Shown: in pieces, positions 4,530 to 7,906 of the stretch
Numbering within the stretch: position 1 is the stretch's first letter
Layout: the number at the start of each line of letters is the position of its first letter
Assembly: GCA_947169455.1 (NCBI GenBank)
Contig: CAMVPV010000049.1
Span: forward strand, 1 to 7,906
DNA: 7,906 nt
Reading direction: 5' to 3'
From: an uncultured Clostridia bacterium
Lineage (GTDB): Bacteria > Bacillota_A > Clostridia > Oscillospirales > Ruminococcaceae
Position numbers and translations under genes: made by a program
Notes under the pieces: generated by a model
Databases searched by the model: none
The model's input: only the letters and a program-made list of their open reading frames with translations
What the model was told of the DNA's origin: nothing

Positions 4530-4556
4530 AGCAGTCTGCGGTCACAGGCTGCTTTT
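4530..4556 (+). terminator. Intrinsic terminator after the operon, copy 1 of a repeat
   Basis: AGCAGTCTG (4530-4538), loop CGGTCA, CAGGCTGCT (4545-4553): a 9-base-pair stem with one G-U pair, followed by a short T run to 4556. The 28 bases 4530-4557 recur exactly at 5254-5281. The next ribosome site is only 25 bases downstream, leaving little room for a new promoter. The hairpin may therefore act as a partial terminator inside a longer transcript. Confidence 0.8.
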
Positions 4557-5250: not shown

Positions 5251-5280
5251 AAAAGCAGTCTGCGGTCACAGGCTGCTTTT
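5251..5280 (+). terminator. Intrinsic terminator after the zinc-ribbon gene, copy 2 of the repeat
   Basis: AAAAGCAGTCTG (5251-5262), loop CGGTCA, CAGGCTGCTTTT (5269-5280): a 12-base-pair stem with one G-U pair. Six A bases lie before it and four T bases close it, so it could stop transcription from either side. Its core 5254-5281 is identical to 4530-4557. The next ribosome site (5303) is 22 bases away. Confidence 0.82.
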
Positions 5281-5893: not shown

Positions 5894-6738
5894 TTCGTGA
5901 ACCAGCGGAAATCATTGTGGTTTGCATCGTAATAGTTGAAATTGCAGAGATAGTATTCCTTTCCGCCGGCGCTGCGGAAGTAATAGAACGTTACGGGTGA
6001 ATCGGGCGAGGTGGGGTAGTCGGTGCCGAGCACGCTCACCACGCGCCCGAGGTCTGCGCCGGTATCGGAGAATTTGCCGTACTCGGTGCGCAGATATTCC
6101 GCCTTGCTGTCGGTCTGCATACGTGCCATTTCGGTGTAGTAAGCAGCGTGCTCGTCGTCCGGCGTGCGCCATACGATATCGGGGAGCTTCACGCTGCCGT
6201 AATGATCGCAGTGCCACCAATCCTCATCGGTGTTGCCGTAAGCGGTGATTATCATGCCGTTGAGCCGTTCGTTCTTGTTTTGTTCCTGCAAAGCGGCGGC
6301 GCATTTCAGCGCGGCATCCTGTGCGGACTTCCCGTCCGGCGCCGTGATGATGAGCAGTATCTCATCGTCAGCAAAGAGCATTTTTTCGGGGACAGCCACG
6401 CCGCCGGTGCACGCCGCACCGATCGCATCGCCCGCGTTGGAAATAACGGTCTTCTTCAGCGACCTGACGAAGTCGTCGCTCGTTTGGGGGACGCTGCCGA
6501 AGCTGCTGCCGTCTATCATGATATCCTGCATACCGCTGGAGACAGTATAGTCAAAATCCTGCAGCTTGTCATGAACGACTATCCTTGCGCCTTTTTCGTC
6601 CTCGGTCTTTGAGACGAGACTGCAGGCGCCGTGTTCTGCCTTTGCGCGGCGGTAGAGCTTATTTGCGCTTGCGGGGCGGCAGCCGGTGAACAGGAATACC
6701 GCCGGAAGTATAAGAAGGAACAGCAAAGATCTTTTCAT
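5875..6738 (-). CDS. Secreted lipoprotein of unknown function
   Basis: The 287-residue protein starts KRS, then a hydrophobic stretch LLFLLILPAVFLF (5-17) and lipobox FTGC with Cys20. It should be lipid-anchored on the outer face of the membrane after signal peptidase II cleavage. I do not recognise the mature domain. Visible features are DYTVSSGMQDIMIDGSSFG (63-81), a repeat-free middle with ILLIITAPDG (127-136), and an aromatic C-terminus, FYYFRSAGGKEYYLCNFNYY (251-270). ATG at 6738 is chosen over an upstream in-frame ATG at 6810. It follows AAGGAG (6754-6749) by ten bases and begins the signal peptide directly, and the longer form would read back into the inserted element. The original consensus promoter lies beyond that element at 7080-7052. 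The 3' end overlaps the oxidoreductase gene by 19 bases. Confidence 0.85.
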   Translation of the reverse strand: MKRSLLFLLILPAVFLFTGCRPASANKLYRRAKAEHGACSLVSKTEDEKGARIVVHDKLQDFDYTVSSGMQDIMIDGSSFGSVPQTSDDFVRSLKKTVISNAGDAIGAACTGGVAVPEKMLFADDEILLIITAPDGKSAQDAALKCAAALQEQNKNERLNGMIITAYGNTDEDWWHCDHYGSVKLPDIVWRTPDDEHAAYYTEMARMQTDSKAEYLRTEYGKFSDTGADLGRVVSVLGTDYPTSPDSPVTFYYFRSAGGKEYYLCNFNYYDANHNDFRWFTNYTPDS

Positions 6739-6790
6739 GCATACCACGCTCCTTGCACTGTTGTTTTGCTTGTCAGCTTCATTATTTTCA

Positions 6791-6800
6791 ATAATTATAA
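6791..6800. repeat. Target site duplication, left copy
   Basis: ATAATTATAA, identical to 7049-7058, directly abuts the left terminal inverted repeat; the bases outside both copies differ. The minus strand of this copy contains TATAAT (6799-6794). Confidence 0.8.
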
Positions 6801-6802
6801 CA
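6794..6802 (-). promoter_or_regulatory. Possible new extended -10 at the element-target junction
   Basis: On the minus strand the junction reads TGTTATAAT: TG comes from the element's terminal bases (6802-6801) and TATAAT from the left target duplication (6799-6794). Before insertion the bases ahead of TATAAT read CAT. A weak -35, TTTACG, lies 19 bases upstream inside the element. It could drive the lipoprotein gene with a short leader, but the -35 is poor. Confidence 0.4.
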
Positions 6803-7048
6803 CTACCCACAACTTAAGCGTAAAATGCGGCGTTAGCCGCAATCAAAGTTTTCGGTCAAGCCTTTTTCAAAAGGCTTGCGGGGTCGAGGGGCGGAGCCCT
6901 CGCCGCCGTCCGCAGACGGCGGAATTCCTATACAAAGAGCTCCGCAAGGGGGGTAGGAAAACAGTCCGGTGGACTGTTTTCCGTAGGGGGGACGCCCTGC
7001 GATAGAGGGCGTCCCCCCTATCCCACAATCCTTAAGTTGTGGATAGTG
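6801..7048. mobile_element. MITE-like non-autonomous element, 248 bases, with terminal inverted repeats and 10-base target duplication
   Basis: The ends are CACTACCCACAACTTAAG (6801-6818) and its near-perfect reverse complement (7031-7048, one mismatch in 18). Exact 10-base direct repeats ATAATTATAA flank the element. There is no open reading frame with a recognisable transposase; the interior is almost entirely GC-rich hairpins. Such short elements are moved by a transposase encoded elsewhere. The terminal sequence does not let me name the insertion-sequence family, and a duplication of about 10 bases fits more than one. It sits between two minus-strand lipoprotein genes and splits the promoter of the downstream one from its gene. 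A third, imperfect end-like copy (CTATCCCACAA, 7018-7028) lies just inside the right end. Confidence 0.85.
6826..7020. repeat. Tandem run of hairpins inside the element
   Basis: Successive inverted repeats are: TGCGGC/GCCGCA (6826-6841); a 10-base-pair stem CAAGCCTTTT/AAAAGGCTTG (6857-6878); CGAGGG/CCCTCG (6885-6902); CCGCCGTC/GACGGCGG (6903-6922); a 12-base-pair stem GGAAAACAGTCC/GGACTGTTTTCC (6956-6982); and a 15-base-pair stem TAGGGGGGACGCCCT (6984-6998) with its complement (7006-7020). Almost every base of the interior lies in one. Transcribed in either direction this would fold into a rod of stem-loops. None ends in a good U run on the minus strand, so they are not obvious terminators for the lipoprotein transcript. 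Confidence 0.85.
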
Positions 7049-7058
7049 ATAATTATAA
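7049..7058. repeat. Target site duplication, right copy
   Basis: ATAATTATAA directly follows the right terminal inverted repeat and equals 6791-6800. On the minus strand it contains the TATAAT (7057-7052) of a full-consensus promoter. Confidence 0.8.
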
Positions 7059-7080
7059 TGATTTTTCAGCGCAATGTCAA
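7052..7080 (-). promoter_or_regulatory. Consensus promoter split from its gene by the element insertion
   Basis: On the minus strand TTGACA (7080-7075), a 17-base spacer (7074-7058) and TATAAT (7057-7052) match the housekeeping consensus fully. It points toward the lipoprotein start at 6738. The -10 lies inside the right target duplication, so transcription would start inside the element's right end and run through all its hairpins. Removing the element and one duplication would leave the same promoter about 55 bases before the ATG, a normal spacing. Confidence 0.8.
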
Positions 7081-7148
7081 GGCTTTTCCGGTTATGATAA
7101 GCATTTGATATGATAGGGCGCGTTGTATAGAAAATACGGGGTGTGCGG

Positions 7149-7694
7149 TCATTCTGCGCGGATGAAGCCGACCTGAGCGGCTGTGCCCTCCTTGCAGTCT
7201 TCCCAGAAGAGCGTTCCGCCCTTGATATTGAACCTTGCCGTGCCGTCGGTATAGACGGTTTCGGGCTCCTGCATCTCACCGTCCGGTGCATAGTCTGTAC
7301 GGTTCAGCGTACCGCCGCCCGTGCATTCGATATATGTGCCGTCGTCGCTGCCTGTGCATGAATAATCCCACAGATAATCTGCGACCGCGCTGTGTGTGGA
7401 GACTTCAACGTCAAAGCTGCCGCTGTTCCCGTTGATAACGATGTAAAGGTCGTTGCCGTTCCACTGTTCTGTGCTCTCCCACTGACCGATATATTCTTCA
7501 AAGGGGTCAGACCCGCTTTCCGGCTCGGCTTCGGCGGATGCATCGGTGTCGGGCTGTGCTTCTGCTGTCGTTTCGGGCTCGGCGGCGGTAGTAGTTTCGG
7601 CGGCTGTTGATGCCGATGTTCCGGCGTCTGCTCCGCAGGCAGTCATTACAAGCACAGTGCTTATCACAGCAATAGTTATCATACTTTTTTTCAT
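7149..7694 (-). CDS. Small secreted lipoprotein with acidic Thr/Ala-rich linker
   Basis: The 181-residue protein has a short basic start (MKKS), a hydrophobic stretch (ITIAVISTVLVM, 6-17) and a lipobox-like VMTAC with Cys20. It is therefore a likely lipoprotein on the outer face of the membrane. Residues 21-63 are a low-complexity Ala/Thr/Glu/Pro spacer of the type that tethers domains through the cell wall. Residues 64-181 form one compact, probably beta-rich domain (YIGQWESTEQWNGNDLYIVI, 68-87; WDYSCTG, 109-115; YTDGTARFNIKGGTLFWED, 148-166) with Cys113 and Cys124 that could form a disulfide. Similar W/Y-rich domains occur in uncharacterised Clostridia lipoproteins, from memory; no function can be assigned. 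AAGGAG (7708-7703) lies eight bases before ATG at 7694. No terminator follows before the next promoter at 7080. Confidence 0.85.
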   Translation of the reverse strand: MKKSMITIAVISTVLVMTACGADAGTSASTAAETTTAAEPETTAEAQPDTDASAEAEPESGSDPFEEYIGQWESTEQWNGNDLYIVINGNSGSFDVEVSTHSAVADYLWDYSCTGSDDGTYIECTGGGTLNRTDYAPDGEMQEPETVYTDGTARFNIKGGTLFWEDCKEGTAAQVGFIRAE

Positions 7695-7883: not shown

Positions 7884-7906
7884 AGATCGGAAGAGCGTCG
7901 TGTAGG
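7884..7906. other. Illumina adapter sequence (assembly artefact)
   Basis: The last 23 bases, beginning AGATCGGAAGAGCGTCGTGT, match the start of the standard TruSeq adapter read-through sequence. They are not part of the genome; the real insert ends at about 7883, where the contig was terminated by untrimmed reads. Confidence 0.97.

Follow-up and report, generated by a model that had tools for sequence, protein, structure and literature searches.

In the window analysed here, which is the whole stretch of 7,906 nucleotides, a short element with inverted ends sits in the -10 box of a full-consensus promoter, and a lipoprotein-like gene lies on the other side of it. This arrangement raises the question of whether the gene is still transcribed, from which promoter, and with what kind of leader.

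A full-consensus promoter and the element within its -10 box

The earlier note had placed a minus-strand TTGACA-17-TATAAT promoter at 7080-7052. All 12 bases match the consensus and the coordinates are correct (Table 1). Exact TTGACA-TATAAT sites with spacers of 16 to 18 bases occurred twice in the whole window versus none in 200 shuffled sequences, and full-consensus promoters are credible in this window because the other exact site, at 2103-2075, precedes an HD-GYP gene (ATG 1965). It had also been stated that the TATAAT belongs to a duplicated target with a second copy at 6799-6794, and that an extended -10 arises at the near junction. Both statements hold, since the repeat is exact over 10 bp with TATAAT in each copy, and TGTTATAAT is found at 6802-6794. 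When the element and one repeat were removed, the end of the -10 box lay 55 bases before the ATG at 6738, in line with the estimate of about 55.

Table 1. Positions of the features discussed, numbered along the window
Feature	Position	Strand	Remarks
Lipoprotein-like gene, 287 aa	5875..6738	minus	Downstream of both promoters; ATG 6738
Outer promoter	7080-7052	minus	TTGACA 7080-7075, 17-base spacer, TATAAT 7057-7052; 12/12 consensus
Target-site duplicate, gene-distal copy	7049..7058		ATAATTATAA; contains the outer -10; exact 10-bp match
Target-site duplicate, gene-proximal copy	6791..6800		ATAATTATAA; minus-strand TATAAT at 6799-6794; exact 10-bp match
Junction extended -10	6802-6794	minus	TGTTATAAT; TGnTATAAT exact; TG from the element's last bases
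Non-autonomous element, 248 bp	6801..7048		18-bp inverted ends, exact 10-bp duplication, without transposase-sized frame
Terminal inverted repeat, promoter side	7031..7048	minus	Predicted transcript start on its first bases
Terminal inverted repeat, gene side	6801..6818	plus	Last bases supply the TG of TGTTATAAT
Hairpin-chain core	6842..7021	plus	Aligned stretch 6842-7021; best matches 6845-7017; covarying stems
Weak terminator-like hairpin	6841-6826	minus	Followed by TTTTACGCT; -9.9 kcal/mol, 5 T in 9; missed by the stricter scan

Being short, with inverted ends, a target duplication and no transposase-sized frame within, the element shares features by which bacterial MITEs are recognised. 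Rfam 15 gave no match in the window at gathering score, and a lax search gave one match within the element, at 25.2 against a gathering score of 137; over five sources, the lax search returned three weak matches, all under the gathering scores of their families. Elsewhere in the window, two identical 26-base terminator-like stretches (4531-4556 and 5255-5280) stand behind two different genes. At 7884-7906, AGATCGGAAGAGC and the bases following it are adapter-like, presumably a sequencing adapter, and the contig end is therefore probably an artefact.

Predicted transcription through the element and the leader it would provide

Transcription typically starts 6-8 bases after the -10 box. As only 3 bases separate the end of the outer TATAAT from the element, the transcript would start at base 3, 4 or 5 of the element. 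A leader beginning near 7046 would be about 308 bases long, with a predicted fold much stronger than in shuffled sequences (z -9.6, 100 shuffles), in agreement with the hairpin-rich leader of roughly 300 bases that had been proposed. For a start at 7047, the predicted probability of being unpaired was 0.16 for the first base and 0.0 for the 13 that follow, a consequence of pairing between the two inverted ends.

Predicted changes near the start codon were modest: the mean unpaired probability of the ribosome site was 0.36 with the element versus 0.57 without it, and that of the ATG 0.43 versus 0.38. A terminator scan of 6600-7250 found none at threshold, with 1.3 expected in shuffled sequences, and the hairpin at 6841-6826 was the most terminator-like site of the leader. 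Read-through is the default expectation in this model, since target duplication has preserved a complete outer promoter, the scan found no terminator and there is only one weak candidate. The statement that the insertion split the promoter from its gene is therefore right only as regards distance.

The explanation that best joins these observations, and which we favour with some reservation, is as follows. An IS4-type transposase acting in trans would have inserted the 248-bp element into the -10 region of the lipoprotein-gene promoter, and the 10-bp target duplication would have copied the whole TATAAT, so that a complete promoter was kept on the far side. The element would then serve as a folded leader, its 5' end held in a helix formed by the two inverted ends, and the native 52-base leader with its ribosome site would follow unaltered, outside that domain. 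The gene would most likely be expressed from the outer promoter with changed stability or level, and TGTTATAAT at the junction could serve as a weaker second start. On this model the next gene is probably still on, but its transcript would have gained a long folded leader. Note that the ends, the duplication, the promoter sequence and the predicted hairpins are features of the locus itself, and that from them we infer the start position and the read-through.

It is unlikely that the element instead silences or attenuates the gene, through its hairpins, through the weak terminator-like site at 6841-6826, or through RNase III-type cleavage of its helices. The predicted folds are very stable, that site does lie in the leader, and expression might drop with the lower predicted accessibility of the ribosome site. 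There is also a precedent in a Correia element immediately beyond the mtrCDE promoter: its IHF site is reported to lower transcription, and the same review mentions cleavage of transcripts by RNase as a further route (PMC10969869). Against such silencing, however, the scan of 6600-7250 returned fewer terminators than the shuffled sequences would yield, and the closed structure does not include the native ribosome site.

A further alternative, distinctly unlikely in our judgement, is that the gene has been re-promoted: the junction -10 would be the main start, bringing the native short leader back, and the outer promoter would feed the element only. An exact TGnTATAAT is present at the junction, and likewise at the exit junction of an insertion at another locus, L084; a start near 6787 would give a 49-base leader and regain its ribosome-site accessibility. 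However, the scan found no -35 partner reaching 9/12 at 16-18 bases from TGTTATAAT, the best candidate matches at most 2/6 by eye, and the outer site should dominate with its 12/12 match. TGnTATAAT was moreover formed in just two of the four checked duplications that contain TATAAT, which argues that it is no rule of the element.

Under the favoured reading, in which the outer promoter is read through the element, an apparent promoter knock-out would, if the geometry holds, be a conservative edit that copies the -10 box instead of breaking it and turns the element into a structurally defined leader. The annotation of promoter insertions would change with it.

The lipoprotein has no Pfam or NCBIfam match and 74 relatives besides itself (best 57%), and its Cys 20 is invariant in 28 aligned sequences, itself included. 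Its frame is open through the junction (6738-6810, minus strand) to a GTG in the end of the element; judged from the sequence, an N-terminal extension from this GTG is formally possible. No empty site was found in 396 genomes of the family, eight of which gave short partial matches, the best of 46 bits over part of the flank. The promoter scan covered 47 of 59 lipoprotein loci, 12 being left out, and an upstream promoter-like site of 11/12 was present in three of the 47 and one of 12/12 in none. None of the other window genes was found in the lipoprotein loci within a reach of up to 2.5 kb beyond the match, and in the genus of G001 just two of 20 genomes, G001 (77%) and G188 (76%), match another window gene, which is NmrA-like. 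In G001, as read by eye, some 27 bases separate the start of the lipoprotein gene from the apparent stop of a frame before it, and the 260 bases scanned contain no promoter-like site of at least 9/12. As the neighbourhood is not shared, the ancestral promoter is not comparable in the relatives, whose sequences neither confirm nor refute it.

Same-ended elements, their transposase and the hairpin-chain cargo

Ends of this type were searched for with the pattern CACTAYCCACAACTTAAG, allowing up to one mismatch, and with the reversed pattern as a control. They were present in 6 of 396 genomes from the family of G008 and in 4 of 394 from the order of G017 (G017 itself belongs to both draws), and the control gave single matches in five and two genomes, respectively. 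The lone one-mismatch ends in G265 and G343 can therefore be chance matches, which those in G394 (39 ends, the elements being multi-copy there), G212 (five) and G017 (an exact pair) are not. Fifteen end pairs, including that of the window, were recovered in the fetched loci: ten are flanked by exact 10-bp duplications, two by imperfect ones (L092, L097) and three by none (L104, L107, L117). With one further exact case, L188, the exact duplications number eleven, window included. The elements are 113-171 bp long except for that of the window and that of L094, which measures 1413 bp. One element of 114 bp with such ends, flanked by an exact 10-bp duplication, lies in a contig of the viral collection (L001, 11705-11818).

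The full-length relative in L094 encodes a transposase frame of 445 residues with a TTG start. It matches PF01609 (DDE_Tnp_1) at E 9.2e-17 and the NCBIfam IS4 model NF033592 at 139.5 bits versus a cut-off of 115, matches that concern L094 and not the window. Its Y(2)R(3)E(6)K (YREK) motif occurs once, at residue 306, and its DDE spacers are 77 and 85 residues, of which the first is within the printed IS4 spacing D(60-110)D(100-150)E (PMC2266710, De Palmenaer 2008) and the second is too short. IS4 elements are expected to duplicate about one helix turn of their target, and the eleven exact cases, at 10 bp, agree with this. By its sequence, the mobilising enzyme is IS4-type with ends nearest to those of IS231, and we do not file it as IS231 because the third end base is C and the second DDE spacer is short. 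Relatives of this transposase also adjoin such ends in G394 and in G210. Of the 394 genomes searched in the order, however, only one contains a close relative (E 1e-40 or better), a point against the favoured model. Plasmid records matching it number 47, all below 60% identity, and among the plasmid matches listed 26 of 40 are annotated as IS4 or IS4-like.

The sequence at 6801-7048 is accordingly read as a transposon insertion, given the same ends on other short elements and on a 1.4-kb IS and the eleven exact 10-bp duplications; these copies and the IS4-type enzyme bear out the proposal of an element landed in the -10 box. The insertion is recent-looking, as its duplication is exact.

The cargo of the element is unusual and forms a repeat family in its own right in related genomes. 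Element positions 45-217 match, wholly or partly, a repeat in related genomes, with 8 places in G008, 10 in G007, 13 in G017, 37 in G407 and 44 in G377; within the genus of G001, eight of the 20 genomes carry it. Copies of this hairpin chain are seen in L061, L064, L123, L128, L132 and other loci, and there are many in some Ruminococcus-like genomes. The fold z of the element was -12.5, and -12.4 on the opposite strand. Fifteen core sequences were aligned (the window and 14 of 24 longer stretches, the other ten being omitted as partial or redundant); their 46 pairs were 97.8% paired and 15 pairs changed on both sides, which 0 of 500 shuffles reached, and since the counted structure was derived from this same alignment, the slid controls favour it.

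IS4-type ends with up to one mismatch were absent from G007 and G008, and none adjoined the 24 longer core stretches, which were read by eye and some of which are cut by contig ends. Also by eye, the core copies of G007 and G017 tend to AGTCTGTCGAAAAAG- and CTTTTTCGACAGACT-like borders, often near terminator-like hairpins, and those of G008 and G410 are bordered by other words. The window is the sole composite of ends and core among the sequences examined. As IS4-type ends and the core occur together in the genomes of G017 and G212, it is plausible from the sequences that the core was captured between such ends. In a phage collection, one faecal phage record matched part of the core (29% of the query), and a plasmid collection gave no match. 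Crude reading frames were used for the gene context of 57 copies, 20 of which were unclassifiable because a frame runs through; of the 36 copies that have a left neighbour, 25 have a same-strand gene there, a count that such frames make unusable for inference. The core could be a mobile cassette or a structured repeat that has so far escaped cataloguing; its compensatory changes and its differing borders across genomes make it a candidate for a repeat of the latter kind in gut and rumen bacteria.

That the locus is a chance inverted repeat or an assembly error at a repeat, with no mobile insertion, is hardly credible: the contig is short with an adapter-like end, so that the assembly is not clean, and some relatives carry the core in many copies, but the same ends with exact 10-bp duplications occur at 10 other places in the fetched records, and mis-assembly could hardly produce matched ends plus an exact duplication.

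Target sites and comparison with known systems

The targets are AT-rich (84% over 11 duplications), and TATAAT is contained in 4 of 10 exact duplications (letter permutation P 0.0012). Ends fell in promoter-like sites of 11/12 or better in 3 of 53 cases. When the window, which had been chosen for its promoter, was left out, 2 of 51 ends did so (all-position P 0.0005; AT-matched P 0.023). Once L188 was included, TATAAT occurred in three of the ten remaining duplications (permutation P 0.006). Three more genomes supplied ten new ends, none of which lay in a promoter-like site or showed TATAAT, giving 2 of 61 combined without the window (AT-matched P 0.031; all-position P 0.0007). The sequences are thus suggestive of a preference for -10 boxes, which we do not take as established because the test was designed post hoc, the two ends of one insertion were counted separately, and ends with up to two mismatches may include chance matches.

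Two other insertions also sit in consensus-like promoters and in a similar register. The insertion at L084 lies in TTGACA-16-TATAAT, 3 bases from the -10 to the element, and that at L121 in TTGACA-17-TATTAT, 5 bases away, its other end not being found. A lipoprotein-like gene follows about 280 bases on at L121, and by eye there is no clear gene downstream of the L084 insertion, only a terminator-like stretch. This short stretch (L084, 1660-1780), near an rpsL-like gene and ending in a terminator-like hairpin, is possibly a small RNA whose promoter was hit; a lax Rfam search of it gave no match at gathering score. A broader picture strikes us as quite improbable, namely that of a family of small IS4-type elements prone to land on -10 boxes in a fixed register. 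The promoter would be doubled by the target duplication, the TG would make the second copy an extended -10, and all messages of the old promoter would begin at the outermost bases of the element, their 5' ends locked in the helix of the two ends. The window copy would in addition have taken up a covarying hairpin cassette able to pass between different kinds of ends.

Among known systems, IS231 is printed in the IS4 table with ends CAT-------AA--TAA--- and a 10-12 bp duplication (PMC2266710). The elements described here share with that entry the CA start, the AA at 11-12, the TAA at 15-17 and the 10-bp duplication, whereas their third base is C and not T. With the IS4 family, the relative in L094 shares the YREK motif, and it passes the NCBIfam IS4 model; its second DDE spacer of 85 residues is below the printed 100-150 (PMC2266710), and the window element has no transposase.

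It is already known of bacterial MITEs that they can contain promoters, insert at AT-rich targets and affect neighbouring genes (PMC6382973; PMC10969869). Like mobile insertion cassettes and MITEAba12, as presented in PMC6382973, the window element is short, lacks a transposase and has ends in common with a full IS; AT-rich targets and a possible outward promoter are further likenesses to MITEAba12. In contrast to MITEAba12, however, the window copy carries a structured repeat that is found elsewhere with other borders, and the promoter is the target itself rather than lying inside the element (PMC6382973). The Correia element described just downstream of the mtrCDE promoter resembles our case as a small element in the same position; the effect on transcription known there is that of Correia, which has other ends and belongs to another family, whereas in the window the -10 box itself is duplicated (PMC10969869). 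At fucAO, IS5 also forms a new promoter from element and flank (PMC11894529), but in that case the promoter comes from the element and an activator site from the flank, whereas in the window the -10 comes from the flank and the element contributes no more than the TG.

Within a limited collection searched by titles and abstract openings, none of the matches listed dealt with duplication of a -10 box by such elements, and none with this hairpin repeat. Taken against these systems, the event is of a known kind, and what is new is the cargo and the neat geometry with which the element sits in the promoter.
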